NCBI RefSeq assembly: GCF_003201475.1
Contig: NZ_QJJK01000003.1
Location: forward strand, 248,001 to 312,000
DNA length: 64,000 nt
From: Chelatococcus asaccharovorans
Lineage (GTDB): Bacteria; Pseudomonadota; Alphaproteobacteria; Rhizobiales; Beijerinckiaceae
Reading direction: 5' to 3'
Part shown: positions 8,863-64,000 of the stretch, one piece after another
Layout of the letters: each line of letters starts with the position of its first letter
Numbering within the stretch: the first letter of the stretch is position 1
Position numbers and translations under genes: made by a program
The notes under the pieces: generated by a model
The model's input: only the letters and a program-made list of their open reading frames with translations
The model's database searches: none
What the model was told of the DNA's origin: nothing

Positions 8863-11800
8863 ATGGCCGAGATGGAAACGTCCACATCCCCACTCACGAC
8901 AGCCGAGATCCTGCGTGCGCTTCGCGATCTCATAAGCGATCCGCAGGTCAAGCGCGAGTTCGAATGGATGGCACAGCAGGCCGGCGCTGTTGCAGGCACC
9001 GCCGCCTCCACGTTCCCCAACCCCAATTCCCTGACCACGGACGTTGGGGCGGAATCCGCGCGCGAGACCGCGGCGATCGCCGACATCCTGCGTTCATTGA
9101 GCTCGTCCGTAATCGATCTGCCGATCAAGGACGAACTCGAATGGACGGCGGCGCAGATCGGCGCGGTGGCAGGCACTGCCGCCTCCGCATTCCCCGGCCG
9201 CAATTCTCTGACCACGGGCGCTGCGACCGCGATCGTGGCGTCGGCCGGTCTGTCGGGATTGAGGCTCAACCTCGACAACACCATTGCCGATATCACAAAG
9301 GGTGTGGATTCGGCCACTCGCTCGAACCCCAATCTCCTGATCGCCGCACCGGGCGAGAATGTCCTGTCATTACCGGCGCAGCAGCGCCTTGGCATCCAAT
9401 CCGTGCGCCTGCAGCTCAACGGGGATCCAGTCCATGATTCGCTCCTGTATCGCGGCTATGTCCGTGAGATCGAGAAGACGCTGAGCAGCACGTTCAACGC
9501 CGATTTCGCAACCAGCGATGACGCCCAGGCGGTTGCCTGGCGTGGCCTGCGCCAGGAGCTCTGGCAGGAAACGAGCAAAGCGACCCTCACCAGCCGCTAC
9601 GCGTCGGGCACGTCTCCCGCCGCCCTGCGTGGCGAGCTGTCGCCGGAGGCCCTGAAAGGCCGGCTGACGAGCGCGCTTCTCGACAAGACCGGGCTGACGC
9701 AACGCCAGGCGTTGCTCGGCGATCTATCCACGGTCACGGCGACTACGTGGCGCATCTTGGCCGGCACAAGGGATGTGTTGGGCATCGTGGGCAATGCCGC
9801 CATCATCGATGATCCCAACGCCAGCGATGCGGCGAAGGCGCGCGCCATCGCGGATATATGTCGACAAGGCAGCACGCTTCTCCAGATCGCTGGCGGCGTC
9901 GCGATCGATGCGGCGACGGGTATGAGCCCGCGCGAGATTCTGAAGACCTTCGCCACCCGCTACGCGGCAGGTGTGGATCCCGGCGTTCTCCACGCCATGC
10001 CGTCGTCGACCGCCCGGACCGCCGCAAGCCCCGGGGCGTCGAGCGCAGCCTTGAAGGCAGCGGCCGGAATTTCCCTCTTCGCCGGGCTGGGCAGCGTCGC
10101 GAGCGACGCTACGCGCATTGCCACAAGCAGCGATCCGATCCTCATCGCGCAGAGCAGTACAAGTCTTGCCGCAACGGCGGCATATGTGTCGAGCGATCTG
10201 GTCAGGGCACTGGCTACGACCACGAAGGCTACGCAGGTCGCGACGAAGCTCGGCATTGCCGGATGCGCCCTGGGTGTCGTCACCGGGGCCGTGGGCCTCG
10301 CCGGTGCGATCCGCGATCTCCAGAACAACCCGACCTCCGGCGCCGCAAAATGGGCCGTCGCCAATTCCGCAATACAGATCGGCGCCGCCGTTTTCGCTGG
10401 TGTGGCAGCGGTCGTTTGTCCGCCTGCGGCCCTGCTGACAGTTCTCCTGCCCGATTTCGGGGCCATCGGCCGCGCCATTGATCTCCAGTCCCTCAAGGAT
10501 GATTTCTGGGCGCAGGGGCTCCACCACGAATGGGACGTGCTCAAAGCCCTGCACACGATCGCGGCCCTGGATGCCACCCCTATGGTCAACTGGTTCAGCG
10601 GGGTCTACACGCCGAAAATCCAGGGCGACATGCGGTCTTCGATGAATACCGAATGGTATTGGAGCGCCTTCGACGAGCGGGCCGCCTCCGTTATCCGCGA
10701 GGGCACAGACCATGCCGAGGCGCTGAAGGCGCTGCGGTCCAAGACCGGTGCCGCGGAACTGATCGACATCAGCTACAATCGCGCGGATTTCAACTGGCTC
10801 GGACAGGAGCGCAGCCTGTTTGGTACCGCGGTCGCCGTCTTTGACAAGAATGGTCACGATACGGCGAAGGATAGGACCGTCCGCGGGGCCGCCGTCGCAA
10901 TCGGGGGCGATGCAGCCGTGAAGGACGACGTCGTCGATCACATAGTTCTTATTCAAGCCAATTTCGACCCGTCTGCGGCGCGTCCAGCCGACCAGGCTGT
11001 CGGCGACGGGGACACGCCGCGCGCTGCGGTCGCGGCAGGACCGGCGGTCGAGCTCGATCGCGGCGGCGACAATCTTGTTGTGGTGCAGGCTGCGAACAGC
11101 CGGGTCACCTCGACTGGCGACAGTAACGACGTCTACCAGGTCGCCAATGGCACCGATTATGACATCGATGACCGGGTCGGGGGAAAAGATGAGGTTCGCT
11201 TCGCGGCGAGCGGCAATGGCCAGAAATTCACGCTGCAAGGAAAGGGCATCGAGTTCTACACCGGCTCGTCCTATGACGACATCGTCATGGGCACGGCAGG
11301 CGCAGACATCTACCGGAGTGGTGGCGGTAACGACCAGATCACCCTCGGTGCCGGTAATGATCAGGCTGTTGCCGGAGGGGCTAGCCAGCTCGATCTCGGC
11401 GATGGCGACGATCTGGCGTTTCTGACTGAGATCGGCTCGAGGGTGACTGGCGGTGCCGGCCAAGACGCCGTCTTTCTCACCGACGCCGTAAAGGAGGCGG
11501 TTTCCCTGACGGCATCCGCCGCCCCAGGCGAAGCGACGCTTGCCTTGAGCGCTGCCAAGCCGGGCGAAGCCCCCGTGTCGCATCTTTTAGGCGTCGAGGG
11601 CGTGTGGCTCACCGCCGCCGCGGACCGCGTCGCACTCGCGCTCGATGCCGCGGGCAGCGCCCCTGCAATCCTCGATATTCAGGCCGTCGACACGGCCGCG
11701 GGCGACGATGTGATTACGTCGCGGGCGAGCAATGTCACCATCTCGGCAGAGGCCGGTAACGACAGCATCACTATAGGTTCGGGGGATGCCGGCGGTCCGC

Positions 11801-55789: not shown

Positions 55790-58700
55790 TTATGCGGGCG
55801 TGCTCTCATTGGGTTGCGCCACGTCGACGGCGCGGCCAAAGCCGCCACCGGTCGGTGTTTCGATGATGATCGTATCGCCGGGATGGACGACCAGCTGCAC
55901 CGAGGAATCCAGTTCCTCCACAAGCCCGCTGGCCCGACGCACGCCGTTGCGGCCCAGGCTGCCTTCGCATCCGCCATCCACACCGAAAGGCGCCACCTTG
56001 CGGTTCCCGCTCAGGATCGCGCAATCCAGTTGTTCCAGGAAGCGGATGGCCCGACGGACGCCATCGCCGGCTGACCAGCGGCCGCGACCGCCCGAGCCGC
56101 GGCGGATCGAGAACTCCTCCACGACCACCGGAAAGCGCGCTTCCAGGATCTCCGGATCGGTCAGCCGGGTGTTGGTCATATTGGTATGGACTGCCGCCGC
56201 GCCATCGAAACCCGGCCCGGCCGGCGCACCGGAGCAGATGGTCTCGTAATATTGCGAGACCGCATTGCCGAAGGTGAGATTGTTCATCGTCGCCTGCGAA
56301 GACCCAAGCTGCCCCACCGCGCCCAAAAGGCAATTGGTGACGGCCTGACTGACCTCCACATTGCCCGCCACGACGGCCGCCGGGTGGCGTGGCGACAGCA
56401 TGGTGCCGGGTGGGATGACGATGTCGATAGGGCGAAGGCAGCCGGCGTTCATCGGCATGCTACGTCCGACGAGCATGCGGAAGACGAACAGCACGGCTGC
56501 GCGCGTGATCGGTTCGGGCGCGTTGAAATTGTCCGGTCGCTGCGGGCTCGTTCCGGTAAAGTCGATGCGGGCGCGGCGCGCCGTCCGATCGATCGTCAAG
56601 CTGACGGCAATCGTGCAGCCCTGGTCCATCGGCAGCGCGAAATGGCCGTCCTTCAGCCCGTCGATCACCTGCCGGACCGCCGCCTCGGCGTTGTCCTGCA
56701 CGTGCCCCATATAGGCCGTGACGACATCCTCGCCAAACTGCCGGATCATCTTGCGCACCTCGGCGCTGCCACGTTCGTTGGCGGCGACCTGCGCCTTCAG
56801 ATCGGCGATGTTCTCATCGATGTTGCGGGCGGGATATGAGGCTCCGGCCAGGATCGCCCGCATCTCGCCTTCGAGAAAGCGGCCCTGATCGACCAGCTTC
56901 ATCGCGTCGATATAGACGCCTTCCTCGTCGATTGTACGGCCGCGCGGGCTCATCGAGCCGGGCGCGACGCCGCCGATATCGGCATGATGTCCACGGCTGG
57001 CGACAATGAAACGGATCGTTTCGCCCGACGCATCGAAGACCGGCGTGACGACGGTGATGTCGGGAAGATGCGTGCCGCCTTGATAGGGCGCATTCAGGAC
57101 AAAGACGTCGCCCGGCTTCATCCTGCCGCGGTTGAGCGCCAGCACGGCCTGCACCGAACTGTCCATCGAGCCGAGATGCACGGGCACATGCGGCGCATTG
57201 GCGACCAGATTGCCCTCGCCGTCGAACAACGCGCAGGAGAAATCGAGCCGCTCCTTCATGTTCACCGAGCGGGAGGTATTCTGGAGCACCACCCCCATCT
57301 GCTCTGCAATCGACATGAAGAGATTGTTGAAGACTTCGAGTTTCACGGGGTCGACGGCCGTATCCCCGCCGGACGCCGTGATGCCGACGGCTTCGCGCGT
57401 CAGGACGAGATCGTTCCGCTCCGTGATCCGTCCGCTCCAGCCCGGCTCTATGACGACCGTCTGGTTCGCTTCGATGACCAGCGCCGGCCCGGCGAGCGCC
57501 TCACCGATGGCAAGCTGCTCACGCCTGACGATACGGCTCTCGCGCCAGGCGCCTTGGCTGTAGATGCGTGCGAAACGCTCCGGCAGGCGCGCCGACGCGG
57601 CCGGGGCGGGGCAGGGCGCGTCGGGTACGACGGCGCCGCCGCCGATCGACTCCACGTCAAGGGCAGCGACCACCAGGTCATGGCCGGCCTGGATGAATCC
57701 GAAGCGCTGGCGATGCTCGTCTTCGAAGGCACGCCGCATCTCCTCCCGGGAGGCAAGCTTCACCGCGATCGCTGAATCGGTGCCCTTGTACCGCAGATGA
57801 ACGGACACCTCGTCGCGGATCTCTCCATCCGCCACGCCCTGCGCGGCAAGCGAGGCGCGCGTCTCGGCGAGCAATGCGACCGACATGCTGGCGATCGTTG
57901 CCATGGCCGGCAGAGCCAGTGGCTCCTCGATGCTCTTCTGGCGGCTCGCGCGGAGATCGCCCAAACCAATGCCAAAGGCCGACAGGACGCCCGAAAACGG
58001 ATGGATGACGACCGTCGCCATGCCGAGCGTCTCGGCCACCCGGCAGGCATGCTGACCACCCGCCCCGCCGAAACAGGCCAGGGCGTAACGGGTGATATCG
58101 TAGCCGCGCGCGACAGAAATCGTCTTGATCGCGCTTGCCATGTTCTGCACGGCGATCGTGATGAAGCCGTCGGCAGCCTCTTCTTCCGTCATGCCGCCGC
58201 CGGCATCTGCCACAAGCGCGGCGAAACGCTCGCGCACGATGCCTTCGTCCAGTGGCTGGTCCTGGCGCGCGCCGAAGATGCTCGGGAAATTCTCTTTGCG
58301 CAGTTTGCCGAGCATGACATTCGCATCGGTGATTGTCAGCGGGCCTCCCCGGCGATAGCAGGCCGGTCCCGGATTGGCTCCGGCGGACTCCGGCCCAACC
58401 TGAAAGCGTCCGCTCTCGAATGAGAGGATCGACCCGCCGCCTGCCGCAACCGTATGGATCAGCATCATCGGCGCGCGCATCCGGACGCCGGCCACCTCGG
58501 ACTCGAACGTGCGCTCGTATCGGCCCTCGTAGTGGGTCACATCGGTCGAGGTGCCCCCCATGTCGAAGCCGATGATCCGGTCGAAGCCAGCCTGTTCGCA
58601 GGTGCGCGCCGCACCGACGACACCCCCGGCGGGGCCTGACAGGATGGCGTCCCGGCCTTGAAACCTGTCGGCCGAGGTCAGTCCGCCGCCAGAGGTCATG

Positions 58701-59416
58701 CAGAGCAGCCGGGCATCGCCGGCGTTCAAGTCCAGATCGGCGATCAGCTCATTGAGATAGCGCTGCAGCACCGGCGAGAGATAGGCGTCCACCACAGTCG
58801 TATCGCCGCGCCCGACGATCTTGATCAGCGGCGAAATTTCGTGGCTGACCGAAACCTGGGCGAATCCCATCTCGCGTGCCATTTGCCCGAGCTGGCGCTC
58901 ATGTTCGGGATAGCGGTAGGCATGCATGAGCACGATGGCGACCGAGCGGATGCCCAGCGCCTTCACATCTTCGAGCTGAAGGCGGGCGGCAGCCAGATCC
59001 AGCGGAACCTCGACCGTCCCGTCGGCCAGCACCCGCTCGGCCACCTCGAAGACGCGATCATAAAGCGTCTCGGGCTTCTCGATCCGCATGGCGAAAATAT
59101 CCCGCCGCGCCTGGTAGCCGATCTCCAGTTGGTCGCGAAACCCACGGGTGATCATGAGCGCGACCGGCTCGCCCTTGCGCTCCAGCAAGGCGTTGGTCGC
59201 GACGGTGGTGCCCATCTTGATCGTGCCGATCATCCCCGGCGGTACCTTTTCGTCGGGACCTAAACCGAGGAAGGCGCGAATGCCGGCCGCTGTTGAATCG
59301 CGATAAGCCTCCGGATTGTCCGACAGAAACTTCCTGGCCTCGAGCGATCCATCGGGCTTGCGTGCGACGATGTCGGTAAAGGTGCCGCCCCGGTCAACCC
59401 AAAAATCCCAGCTCAT
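55790..59416 (-). CDS. Fused HyuA-HyuB hydantoinase / 5-oxoprolinase family protein
   Basis: ATP-dependent opening of a cyclic amide: 5-oxoproline, N-methylhydantoin or a related lactam. 1208 residues, the fused form. The HyuA half (about 1-690) starts [19 protein letters not shown], with [31 protein letters not shown] and [16 protein letters not shown]. The HyuB half (about 700-1205) has [51 protein letters not shown], a MNNLTFGN-type motif, and the C-terminal PGGGGFGxxxx-like [12 protein letters not shown] 59416 is chosen; a GTG five codons upstream is possible. Precedes the importer on the same strand by 295 bases and is divergent from the MarR-like gene. The exact substrate is open. Confidence 0.93.
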
Positions 59417-59468
59417 GGCCAATCCCTGCACCTGACGTTGGCAAAACGTTTATATATTATCGATGTTT

Positions 59469-60746: not shown

Positions 60747-61664
60747 ATGGGCCGTTACATCGTGCAGCGTCTCGTCCTCACGATTCCGGTGCTCATCGGC
60801 ATCATGCTGGTGTGTTTCTTTCTGACGCGTCTCAGCGGCGATCCGACCGATCTCATGTTGCCGACCAATGCGACAGAGGAGGCTCGTGCCGCCTTCCGGT
60901 CCGTCCATGGCCTGGACAGGCCGTTGTGGGAGCAGTTCGTCACCTTTTTCGGCAAGGGGCTCCTGGGCGATTTCGGCGCCTCGCTGCGCTTCAACCAGCC
61001 GGCCATGAGCCTCGTCTGGGAGCGCCTGGGGGCGACCAGCGAGCTTGCCGCGGCGACGATGGCCATGGCGCTCCTGATCGGTGTGCCGGCCGGCGTTGCG
61101 GCCGCCTATCGCCGCAATACGCCGGCGGACATCACGATTCGTGGCGTCACGCTGATGGGGCAGGCGCTGCCGGGCTTCTATCTCGGCATCATTTCCATCA
61201 TGGTCTTTGCCGTCTGGCTGCGCTGGCTGCCCTCCGGCGGACGCGGCTCCTGGCTCAACCTCATTCTGCCGGCAGCGACGCTCGCCTTCAATCTCGTCGC
61301 GCTGATCGCCCGCGTCACACGATCCTGCATGCTCGACGTGCTGCGGCAGGACTATATCCGCACGGCCCGCGCCAAGGGGGCGCGTGAGCGTACCGTGCTG
61401 TGGATCCACGCCCTCAGAAACGGCTTCATTCCCGTGCTGACGGTGATCGGCCTGCAGATCGGCCTCCTGATGGGCGGCGTCGTGGTGACCGAGACGGTGT
61501 TCTCCTGGCCGGGTGTCGGGAGGCTCGCCATCCAGGCGATCTATGCGCGCGATTTCCCCGTGGTGCAGGCGGTCGTTTTCACCTTCGCCATCATCTTCGT
61601 CTTCGTGAATCTCGTCGTCGATCTCCTCTACGCGGTGCTTGATCCGCGCATCAGCTACAACTGA
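60747..61664 (+). CDS. Second dipeptide-type ABC permease, DppB-like
   Basis: 305 residues with about six helices. N-terminal YIVQRLVLTIPVLIGIMLVCFFLTRLSGDPTDLM, EAA loop RTARAKGARERTVLWIHALRNGFIPVLTV, and the end FVNLVVDLLYAVLDPRISYN are all DppB-type. ATG 60747 follows AGGGGAACC. It is divergent in sequence from the permease at 52869, so it belongs to a different transporter. No ATPase gene for it lies in the window. Confidence 0.92.
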   Translation: MGRYIVQRLVLTIPVLIGIMLVCFFLTRLSGDPTDLMLPTNATEEARAAFRSVHGLDRPLWEQFVTFFGKGLLGDFGASLRFNQPAMSLVWERLGATSELAAATMAMALLIGVPAGVAAAYRRNTPADITIRGVTLMGQALPGFYLGIISIMVFAVWLRWLPSGGRGSWLNLILPAATLAFNLVALIARVTRSCMLDVLRQDYIRTARAKGARERTVLWIHALRNGFIPVLTVIGLQIGLLMGGVVVTETVFSWPGVGRLAIQAIYARDFPVVQAVVFTFAIIFVFVNLVVDLLYAVLDPRISYN

Positions 61665-61673
61665 GGCGGCGCC

Positions 61674-62579
61674 ATGTCCCTGTCACCGACCGCCGACGCC
61701 GCTGAACCTTCCCCCGCGCAGAACCGCTGGCGCACCGTCACGCGGCGGCTCTTCACCAAGAAGGCGGCCCAGCTGAGCCTTGCCATCATCCTGGTCGGGT
61801 TCCTGTTCGCGCTGGTGCCGTCGCTTTTGGCGCCGCATGATCCCTACGCTCAGGAACTCACCCTGCGGCTGCGTCCGCCGGCGTTCATGGAGCGCGGCGT
61901 ACCGGGATATTGGCTCGGTACCGACCAGCTCGGCCGCGATATCCTCTCGCGCATCATCTATGGCGCGCGCATCACCCTCTTCGTCAGTATCTTTGCGGTC
62001 CTCGTATCCGGCGTGGCGGGCGTCGCGATGGGGCTCATCGGCGGCTATTACGGCGGCAAGGCCGATGCGGTGATCCTGCGGTTGATCGACATCCAGCTCG
62101 CCTTTCCGCTGGTGCTGCTCGTCATCGCGGTCGTCGCCGTCGTCGGCCCGTCGCTGACCAATCTCATCATCATCATGGGGCTGTCGGGATGGCCGCGCTT
62201 TGCGCGGGTGGTGCGCGGCTCGGTACTCTCCGTCCGCAACAAGGAATTCGTCGAGGCCGCGCGGGCGATCGGTGTGAAGACGCCGCGTATCATGCTGCAG
62301 CATATCCTCCCCAATGTCCTCTCGGCGGTGATCGTCTACGCGAGCTTCGATCTCGCCCGCATGATCCTCTTGGAAGCAACGCTTAGCTTCCTCGGGCTCG
62401 GCGTGCAGCCGCCATCCCCCACCTGGGGCGGGATGATCAGCGACGGGGCCAAATACATGAGCCTGTCCTGGTCGGTCTCGCTCAGCCCCGGCATCGCCAT
62501 CGCGCTTCTGATCCTGGCCTTCAACATTCTCGGCGACGAGCTCCGCGACGCGCTCGACCCGCAGATTTCCGACAACTGA
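61674..62579 (+). CDS. Second dipeptide-type ABC permease, DppC-like
   Basis: 301 residues. FLFALVPSLLAPHDPYAQEL, VPGYWLGTDQLGRDILSRIIYGARITLFVS, the EAA loop EAARAIGVKTPRIMLQHILPNVLSAVIV, and the C-terminus FNILGDELRDALDPQISDN mark it as DppC-type. It starts 9 bases after the DppB-like gene and is followed 34 bases later by the first tautomerase gene, so transport and tautomerase genes form one operon. Confidence 0.92.
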   Translation: MSLSPTADAAEPSPAQNRWRTVTRRLFTKKAAQLSLAIILVGFLFALVPSLLAPHDPYAQELTLRLRPPAFMERGVPGYWLGTDQLGRDILSRIIYGARITLFVSIFAVLVSGVAGVAMGLIGGYYGGKADAVILRLIDIQLAFPLVLLVIAVVAVVGPSLTNLIIIMGLSGWPRFARVVRGSVLSVRNKEFVEAARAIGVKTPRIMLQHILPNVLSAVIVYASFDLARMILLEATLSFLGLGVQPPSPTWGGMISDGAKYMSLSWSVSLSPGIAIALLILAFNILGDELRDALDPQISDN

Positions 62580-62613: not shown

Positions 62614-62835
62614 ATGATCATTTCCATTCAATTCGAGAACAGCCGCACCGACGATACCAAGCGCGCCGGTGCCAAGGCGATGACGGAGGCCGCGGTTGCG
62701 ACCCTCGGCGTCAAGCCCGAATGGGTCACCGTGCTCTACGAGAATTACGACAAGGAGAACTGGGCGATCGGCGGGGAACTGCTGCTCGATCGCCATGCCG
62801 CGCGCGAAAAGGCAGCAAAGGCCGGGAAGCCCTAA
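62614..62835 (+). CDS. 4-oxalocrotonate-tautomerase paralogue 1, lacking Pro-1
   Basis: 73 residues, 4-OT family. It begins MIISIQFENSRTDDTKR, aligned to its neighbour's MPIITIQFDKGRS with the proline codon simply absent, so no N-terminal catalytic proline can form. The Arg of the 4-OT Arg-11 position (in NSRT) and the NWAIGGELLLDRH block (Trp at the Phe-50 position) are kept. A strong GGAGGG ribosome site fixes the start. It follows the DppC-like gene directly. Likely a non-catalytic partner or an altered enzyme. Confidence 0.85.
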   Translation: MIISIQFENSRTDDTKRAGAKAMTEAAVATLGVKPEWVTVLYENYDKENWAIGGELLLDRHAAREKAAKAGKP

Positions 62836-62892
62836 TCCACCGCCGTGTCAGGTGGCGTGGACAGTTGTTCGCGTCGGCCTTGCCGAAGGTCG

Positions 62893-62967
62893 CGGTCATT
62901 CCGGGCTCGGGCCTCTCGGCCCGCCCCGGAATGACGACGGAGGTTCCCATGGCTTCACCGCGGCAAC
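62893..62967 (+). repeat. Dispersed repeat, family 2, between tautomerases 1 and 2
   Basis: GTCATTCCGGGCTCGGGCCT, CTCGGCCCG, CCGGAATGACGACGGAGG, then GGCTTCACCGCGGCA. About 70 bases match, in reverse complement, the copy at 63528, so the pair brackets tautomerases 2 and 3 as an inverted repeat. Its core is a stem-loop. Confidence 0.85.
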
Positions 62968-63029
62968 TGTCGTCCTAGGCCGCACATCTGCAATCACCCA
63001 ACCAACGACCATTGAGACAGGGACATGTC

Positions 63030-63245
63030 ATGCCCATCATCACCATTCAGTTCGACAAGGGCCGCTCCGTCGAGAAGAAGCGGGAAGTCGCCAAGGCCGT
63101 CACCGATGCCATCGTCGCGACGCTGGGCGGCGAGCGCGACTGGGTCACCATCCTGTTCCGCGACTACGAGCGGACGGACTGGGCGATCGGCGGCAACCTG
63201 CAACTCGACCGCCACGGCCCGCTGAAACCCGGCCACCACGGCTGA
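63030..63245 (+). CDS. 4-oxalocrotonate-tautomerase paralogue 2, with Pro-1
   Basis: 71 residues. After Met removal the chain starts Pro-1 (PIITIQFDKGRS), with Arg-11 conserved and Trp at the Phe-50 position (TDWAIGGNLQLDRHG). The Arg-39 position is Thr, so substrate binding differs from classical 4-oxalocrotonate tautomerase. The ribosome site ACAGGGACATGTC sets ATG 63030. It is the only one of the three paralogues with the catalytic proline. The reaction may be tautomerisation, hydrolytic dehalogenation or decarboxylation; the sequence does not decide. Confidence 0.88.
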   Translation: MPIITIQFDKGRSVEKKREVAKAVTDAIVATLGGERDWVTILFRDYERTDWAIGGNLQLDRHGPLKPGHHG

Positions 63246-63291
63246 AGGCCACGCAACATCCGTTCTCGTCACGAACAAGGACATCACGACA

Positions 63292-63510
63292 GTGATCATC
63301 ACCATCCAGATGGAAAGAGGCCGCAACGTCGATACCAAGCGGCGCGCGGCCAAGGCCTTTACCGACGCGGCCATCGCGACCCTCGGCGCCAAGGCCGAAT
63401 GGGTGACTGTGCTGTTCGAGGACTACGAGCGCACGGACTGGGCGATCGGCGGCAATCTGCAGCTCGATCGCCATGGCCCGGGGCTCGTCACGCTCGGCAA
63501 CAAGGACTAG
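63292..63510 (+). CDS. 4-oxalocrotonate-tautomerase paralogue 3, lacking Pro-1
   Basis: 72 residues, start GTG 63292 after AAGGACATCACGACA. It begins M-IITIQMERGRNVDTKRR, again with the proline codon missing relative to paralogue 2, but keeps the Arg of GRN, DYERTDWAIGGNLQLDRHGPG and the overall 4-OT length. It is closer to paralogue 2 than paralogue 1 is. 46 bases separate it from paralogue 2. No in-frame ATG-CCN start is available upstream. Confidence 0.83.
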   Translation: MIITIQMERGRNVDTKRRAAKAFTDAAIATLGAKAEWVTVLFEDYERTDWAIGGNLQLDRHGPGLVTLGNKD

Positions 63511-63527: not shown

Positions 63528-63598
63528 GTTGCCGCGGTGAAGCCACCGGAACCACCGTGTCATTCCGGGGCGGGCCGAAAGGCCCGAGCCAGGAACCC
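63528..63598 (-). repeat. Dispersed repeat, family 2, inverted copy after the tautomerases
   Basis: CGTTGCCGCGGTGAAGCCAC, then GTGTCATTCCGGGGCGGGCC and AAAGGCCCGAGCC: the reverse complement of 62893-62967 with few changes. Confidence 0.85.
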
Positions 63599-63665: not shown

Positions 63666-63745
63666 ACCTCGTGTTCATGGATTCCGGGCTCCTCGCTGAC
63701 GCGAGGCCCGGGAATGACGGCGGGATTCCATCCAAATACAGCATG
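63666..63745 (+). repeat. Dispersed repeat, family 2, copy at 63.7 kb
   Basis: CCTCGTGTTCATGG, ATTCCGGGCTCCTCGCTGAC, GCGAGGCCCGGGAATGACGG and GGGATTCCATCC match 48228-48322 in order. The stem-loop lies between the convergent tautomerase and binding-protein genes and may serve as a terminator. Confidence 0.8.
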
Positions 63746-63820: not shown

Positions 63821-64000
63821 CTACTTGAGCGATGTATTGTAAAAATAGAAGCGCTGGTCGCCGCTTGGCTTGAAGTTCTCCAGCTTGTTGGTCGTGCCGT
63901 AGAATTCAACGCCGGCGAAGAGGAAGATGATCGGCGCTTCGTCATGCATGATGCGCATCGCCTTTTTGTAGATGGCGTCCCGCTTGGCGCGGTCGGTCTC
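63821..64000 (-). CDS. Substrate-binding protein of a dipeptide-type ABC transporter (3' end)
   Basis: The C-terminal 59 residues of a family-5 periplasmic binding protein, reading RDAIYKKAMRIMHDEAPIIF, then LFAGVEFYGTTNKLENFKPS and ending FYFYNTSLK. The pattern of YxxxxxIxxxxAPxIxLF near the C-terminus is characteristic of DppA/OppA relatives. It is convergent with the permease-tautomerase operon and probably supplies the binding protein for those permeases; the rest, and any ATPase genes, lie outside the window. Confidence 0.82.
   Translation of the reverse strand, partial: ETDRAKRDAIYKKAMRIMHDEAPIIFLFAGVEFYGTTNKLENFKPSGDQRFYFYNTSLK

Follow-up and report, generated by a model that had tools for sequence, protein, structure and literature searches.

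Pro-1 was long held to be a mechanistic imperative in the 4-OT superfamily, and members without it had no known function when Davidson et al. surveyed the superfamily in 2017 (PMC5818174). As far as the text of that survey was available, it finds that 346 of the 11,395 sequences counted in the superfamily have no Pro-1 and that 13 of these 346 belong to the 4-OT subgroup; it deals with single sequences, describes no gene triplet with a Pro-1 partner, and its main text does not contain the word "tandem" (PMC5818174). The original prediction for the locus described here held that mixed-chain 4-OTs are known, and PDB searches bear this out, since entries 8t9o and 8t9p (whose assembly is known to us from chain names and numbers alone) each pair a "Tautomerase alpha subunit" that starts with Pro with a "Tautomerase beta subunit" that starts Ser-Ile-Ile; entry 8t9q contains a single 149-residue chain with both halves. 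CaaD (trans-3-chloroacrylic acid dehalogenase) carries Pro-1 on both of its chains, and its alpha chain has Arg-8 and Glu-52. It is a heterohexamer, composed of two 4-OT-type chains with 19% identity (PMC5818174). Our literature searches, with most subscription papers outside their coverage, returned among the matches listed none on tandem 4-OT triplets and none joining tautomerase, membrane dipeptidase and dipeptide ABC transporter.

The window (the whole 64,000-nucleotide stretch analysed, G000:C3:248001-312000, where G000 is the window's own genome) carries three 4-OT-like genes on the plus strand: T1 at 62614..62835 (73 residues, ATG start, Met-Ile-Ile, without Pro-1), T2 at 63030..63245 (71 residues, ATG start, Met-Pro-Ile-Ile; the proposed catalytic chain) and T3 at 63292..63510 (72 residues, GTG start, without Pro-1). 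As in 8t9o and 8t9p, short 4-OT chains of the Pro-1 and non-Pro-1 types occur together, and the beta chains of those entries have Ile-Ile after residue 1, as do T1 and T3. Unlike the two chain types of 8t9o and 8t9p, the triplet has three; where their beta chains have Ser-1, T1 and T3 have a Met-1 that is expected to be retained; and position 39, Arg in the 8t9o/8t9p chains shown, is never Arg in the triplet chains. A mixed-chain 4-OT is thus an already known kind, and what is new here is the presence of two non-Pro-1 partner types with an expected Met-1. The commonest residues after Met in non-Pro-1 superfamily members are Ser, Ile and Ala, in the available part of the survey, and Ile is the residue found in T1 and T3 (PMC5818174).

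Residue comparisons below are numbered from Pro-1 or Met-1 and cover 17 triplet chains, which come from three lineages only, and their counts are not independent. The 4-OT subgroup resembles the triplet in PF01361, the beta-alpha-beta fold and Arg-11, as well as in the Pro-1 of T2; it differs in that T1 and T3 are without Pro-1, none of the 17 chains has Arg-39, and the NCBIfam cut-offs are missed. The chains of CaaD are 19% identical, whereas identity to T2 is 49% for T1 and 67% for T3. CaaD itself was considered as an identity for the locus and rejected: T2 does have Pro-1, but every one of the 17 triplet chains has Glu or Asp as residue 8, as against Arg-8 in the CaaD alpha chain, and residue 52 is Ile, that of the WAI motif in the aligned chains.

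Three 4-OT-like genes and their occurrence

The proteins begin MIISIQFENSR (T1), MPIITIQFDKGR (T2; the ATG at 63030 is adopted as start, and the program-made list of open reading frames begins the gene at TTG 63012) and MIITIQMERGR (T3), and in alignment all three have I-x-I-Q-x4-R and W-A-I-G-G-x-L-x-L-D-R-H. Each exceeds the Pfam PF01361 cut-off of 22 bits (T1 33.9, T2 49.4, T3 33.3). All three fall below the NCBIfam 4-OT cut-offs, the best score against the 2-hydroxymuconate tautomerase equivalogs being that of T2 (59.6 of 80 for NF001966 and 44.7 of 56.9 for TIGR00013). What T1 and T3 are missing is the CCN codon alone, with ATG or GTG followed by ATC ATY as against ATG CCC ATC ATC in T2. 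Coordinates, motifs and domain scores therefore confirm the predicted set of three same-strand paralogues of 71-73 residues with common motifs, and the codons confirm that the middle gene alone begins Met-Pro. Single-chain AlphaFold2 models of T1 (mean pLDDT 86.6) and T3 (mean pLDDT 81.8, with residues 62-72 below 50) both predict a beta-alpha-beta arrangement (E2-8, H13-31, E39-45) in which residue 1 directly precedes strand 1. The assigned starts of T1 and T3 are supported by purine-rich stretches just upstream, by start codons that are fixed in four of four genomes of the genus (ATG for T1, GTG for T3), and by like N-termini in the assemblies of Devosia enhydra (T1 and T3) and Nitratireductor soli (T3).

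The triplet is present in all four genomes examined from the genus, the window's own counted (G000-G003), with identical codons at the N-termini: ATG ATC ATT in T1, ATG CCC in T2 and GTG ATC ATC in T3. We scanned the genome_contigs collection (84,980 species) for two peptide patterns; this approach, which misses genes having neither pattern and may omit records close to the window's own genome, gave 33 stretches and two confirmed loci. One, in D. enhydra, a member of another family, is a full ordered triplet with gaps of 3 and 20 nt and the N-termini MIIQVYM (T1), MPIITIQ (T2) and MMIIVKM (T3). The other, in N. soli, is a split system at L057 9145-13149, in which T2 (MPFITIT) and T3 (MIITIQM) lie on opposite strands with ~3.6 kb between them; no T1 was found, with two matches only at E <= 0.001 in a contig-level assembly where a gap is possible. 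Pro-1 is present in six of six T2 chains and absent from five of five T1 and six of six T3 chains, and a Pro-1 gene stands beside a non-Pro-1 gene in five genomes, N. soli being the exception. A genome search for triplets with the same Pro/no-Pro pattern, proposed as a check in the original prediction, thus found them in all four genomes of the genus and in a Devosia of a second family, and the arrangement of an intact copy between two that have lost Pro-1 proves to be real, under selection and kept beyond the family in ordered-triplet form.

Outside the triplet, all 26 related genes whose start was read begin Met-Pro (15 from 20 loci, no match being printed for L003, L004, L007, L008 and L037, and 11 in L089-L098); the fused gene of L004 and L008 and that of L007 also begin Met-Pro, L003 lying outside these readings. 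Another genome of the phylum has an adjacent pair of short 4-OT genes (L093, 1276 and 1501, plus strand), both Met-Pro, the second being the weaker match. The window's genome also contains a solitary Met-Pro paralogue, MPVITIRIGKGRP...WATGGELHVDKFG (L022 1501-1752, match G000:C7:384371-384577), which is flanked by a ketoacyl synthase on one side and a thioesterase-type gene on the other, and has relatives in L026 and L029-L031.

Pairwise dN/dS within the genus is 0.029-0.056 for T1, 0-0.041 for T2 and 0-0.043 for T3; for comparison, dppC of G000 gives 0.066-0.076 against the three other genomes, and the solute-binding protein 0.032 and 0.036. Between G001 and G002, T3 differs by 26 synonymous changes and no replacement change. 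On these low ratios, and on the 26 silent changes in T3, the sequences indicate that T1 and T3 are maintained by purifying selection in the genus in spite of having no Pro-1. Against Devosia, pN of the G000 genes is 0.281 for T1, 0.253 for T3 and 0.103 for T2, in an ungapped comparison whose 3' part is possibly misaligned.

Matches are sparse in the wider samples, which overlap and include the window's genome in each group to which it belongs: 6 of 199 genomes in the window's family (E <= 1e-12), four of them the genus itself, 11 of 397 in the order and 3 of 385 in the class (both E <= 1e-15), and 11 of 398 in the phylum (E <= 1e-12). More than one match at threshold was seen in the order, class and phylum samples in the window's genome alone. 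A 16S comparison meant to assign families matched in 4 of 55 genomes and did not place them. In the Devosia family (f6, picked through a PurU comparison at 80% identity in which 22 of 54 genomes matched), 1 of 136 genomes matched at E <= 1e-16 and is D. enhydra by its coordinates, and the presumed-Rhizobiaceae sample (f5; 4 genomes) gave a single weak match in one. A plasmid tblastn returned 9 records with T2 and 59 with T1, all below 60% identity, the one start that was read being Met-Pro, and no records with T3. The system is accessory and patchy, and so has likely been transferred horizontally.

Genes around the triplet

Upstream of T1, on the plus strand, are genes for a DppB/NikB-type ABC permease (60747..61664, PF00528) and a DppC/NikC-type ABC permease (61674..62579, PF00528 and PF12911). 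The order is the same in four of four genomes of the genus: dppB, dppC, 34 nt between the dppC stop and T1, T1, 194-334 nt, T2, 42-46 nt and T3. Beyond T3 follow, again in all four, an opposite-strand solute-binding protein (SBP_bac_5; its 3' end at 63821..64000 on the minus strand exits the window, the whole gene being L009 5822-7333), a cupin-domain gene, two M19-family genes and a second solute-binding protein. In N. soli, a run of genes on one strand comprises a solute-binding protein, DppB, DppC, M19, two ABC ATPases and, after 59 nt, T2, and T3 has next to it an HTH-cupin gene and a further solute-binding protein. Genes for Dpp import and M19 proteins lie near T2 in two lineages.

Among the genes scanned in Devosia, those closest to the triplet are of the Omp85, PfkB and Indigoidine_A types. 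The surrounding 19.5 kb has 20 predicted genes, not one of which clusters with the DppB, DppC, SBP (SBP_bac_5) or M19 of the other loci; an SBP_bac_8-type ABC transporter begins 2.8 kb downstream on the same strand, with PfkB and Indigoidine_A between on the other strand. The predicted link to Dpp-type permeases therefore holds for all four genomes of the genus and for T2 in N. soli, but not for Devosia, where the three genes stay together in the absence of the Dpp transporter. A conserved link to a hydantoinase/oxoprolinase and a MarR-like regulator was considered and rejected, because the fused hydantoinase A/B (oxoprolinase-type) gene and the MarR-like regulator (region 55790-59431, minus strand) are upstream of dppB in G000 only; the genes there in G001 (by Pfam, LexA, a Competence-domain protein and a class I (E and Q) tRNA synthetase) are, by blastp clusters, likewise upstream in G002 and G003.

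A possible mixed oligomer

Arg-11, Lys-16, Arg-17, Thr-24, Trp-50, Gly-54, Leu-56 and Asp-59 are invariant in 17 of 17 triplet chains. Every one of the 11 Met-1 chains has Glu as residue 8, which we take to line the active site (as do Leu-8 of 4-OT and Arg-8 of CaaD), and each of the six Pro-1 T2 chains has Asp there. The 12 outside homologues tabulated with them never have an acid at this position, but Gly, Ala, Leu, Phe or Trp; judged by these sequences, the triplet is marked by an acidic residue 8 that pairs with residue 1. At position 39, 14 of the 17 chains have Thr, with Ser, His and Asn once each, Trp-37 and Thr-39 being changed in Devosia T3, and the outside homologues are likewise without Arg-39. 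In the 4-OT subgroup Arg-39 serves dicarboxylate binding (PMC5818174), and the retention of Arg-11, which acts across subunits, together with the absence of Arg-39 points to a monocarboxylate substrate.

From these residues, from the recurrence of the ordered triplet and the purifying selection on its genes, and by analogy with the solved entries, we think it somewhat probable that T1, T2 and T3 make up a hetero-oligomeric 4-OT-type enzyme, probably hexameric, in which T2 bears the catalytic Pro-1 and T1 and T3 complete the sites. T2 would lose its initiator Met, exposing Pro-1, and would be the sole chain with the canonical catalytic group. Methionine aminopeptidase is not known to cleave before Ile, and T1 and T3 would for this reason keep Met-1. 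They would take the place of sister subunits, with their Arg-11 and acidic residue 8 completing T2 sites across the interface; in 8t9o and 8t9p, the beta chain with Ser-1 presumably plays this part for the alpha chain with Pro-1. The minimal core may be T2 and T3, as in N. soli, T1 being an added third chain; the lack of a detectable T1 beside T2 and T3 there suggests that T1 can sometimes be dispensed with. A monocarboxylate enol, enamine or unsaturated acid is the likely substrate, rather than 2-hydroxymuconate, and in some hosts a Dpp-type importer may bring it in. Several observations weigh against this reading. In N. soli, T2 and T3 lie apart on opposite strands and no T1 was found; in the genus, a spacer of 194-334 nt separates T1 from T2, with a strong hairpin in the window's genome; from G000 to Devosia, T1 and T3 have diverged more than T2; and Devosia T3 is changed at Trp-37 and Thr-39. 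The tree, which is weak (66 columns, and 3 starred among 22 inner branches), groups neither T2 nor T3 into one clade and rejects no grouping (p-AU 0.448 for T1+T3, 0.166 for T2+T3 and 0.168 for T1+T2+T3); it is compatible with one loss of Pro-1 or with two. The one-catalytic-chain idea of the original prediction would, by the same analogy, match the type already solved, extended here to two partner types, and that interpretation is supported in part. Only tentatively can one go further, to a three-chain tautomerase such as a (T1-T2-T3)2 hexamer, which would have two Pro-1 sites and four Met-1-amine sites facing Glu-8/Asp-8.

Such an assembly, should it exist, would be a hexamer desymmetrised by nature; its non-Pro-1 chains would be structural or perform a second, primary-amine chemistry on an imported substrate, and gene duplication would have led naturally from a homohexamer to a desymmetrised enzyme. 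At this locus, non-Pro-1 chains under selection are accompanied by a constant Pro-1 partner across several genomes, so that the role of such chains becomes testable by co-expression of three small proteins.

Alternatively, one could envision T1 and T3 as neofunctionalised proteins that form their own homo-oligomers, with the primary amine of Met-1 acting as base or in a Schiff base, or else with a non-catalytic role (ligand binding or regulation), and that stay beside T2 solely through a shared pathway. We regard this as rather unlikely, although it would suit N. soli, where T2 is not linked to T3 and no T1 was found, and the T1 chains, which form a well-supported clade (97/96); Davidson et al. 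propose, in the available part of their text, that a non-Pro N-terminal amine may serve as acid/base or that such members are regulatory proteins (PMC5818174). It is disfavoured by the solved entries, which already pair Pro-1 with non-Pro-1 chains, and by the compact Devosia triplet, which lies apart from Dpp, SBP_bac_5 and M19 genes and so speaks for a tie between the three proteins as such, an argument weakened somewhat by the unrelated ABC transporter 2.8 kb downstream.

An alpha3-beta3 heterohexamer like that assumed for 8t9p, made of T2 and T3 as its two chains and with T1 as a separate and later protein tied to the permease operon, is likewise doubtful as a whole, and overlaps the three-protein enzyme preferred above in its T2-T3 part. 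N. soli, which has T2 and T3 only, would be explained, as would the position of T1 in the genus, 34 nt after dppC and 194-334 nt from T2-T3; in Devosia, however, T1 stands 3 nt before T2 with no Dpp-type permease nearby, which indicates that the association of T1 does not depend on a permease operon. An artefact or decay, in which a sequencing or start-codon error hides the CCN codon or T1 and T3 are dying duplicates, has in its favour solely the near universality of Pro-1 elsewhere (the 26 Met-Pro homologues) and is ruled out, as very improbable, by the conservation and selection results, since five assemblies agree on T1 and six on T3, dN/dS is <= 0.06, and the genomes of the genus share the start codons and the purine-rich stretches upstream of them.

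M19 proteins and the T1-T2 spacer

Homologues of the M19 "membrane dipeptidase" lie just beyond the window (L009 8326-9324, plus strand, and 9487-10491, minus strand) and in N. soli (L057 15274-16302, minus strand). Canonical M19 members have a metal-binding His-x-Asp near the start, and all three homologues have DGLNCA at that site. The two proteins of the window's genome have GTQN and GAQN, the Gln of the first aligning with a Glu of 3fdg, and the PDB entry closest to this first protein, 2i5g, shows a similar pattern (DGLIIA, GFQNA). M19 enzymes include dehydropeptidases, whose products are enamines. It is an attractive but speculative idea that the tautomerase would act on such an enamine, and one weakened by the absence of the canonical metal-binding residues from the M19 proteins found here.

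The adjacency of the three genes, as originally pictured, stands in that they are neighbours on one strand, but the 194-nt gap between T1 and T2 holds a strong hairpin. A perfect palindrome at 62895..62935 has inverted 11-nt arms (GTCATTCCGGG), and the RNA fold of 62884-62945 in the window's genome has -37.2 kcal/mol and z -3.83; the T1-T2 spacers of G001 and G003 differ from it in sequence. The palindrome may uncouple T1 from T2-T3, and equal expression is doubtful given a spacer of 194-334 nt in the genus and a strong hairpin in the window's genome. Imperfect copies of the arm, in opposite orientation, occur after T3 at 63558-63569 and 63708-63719.
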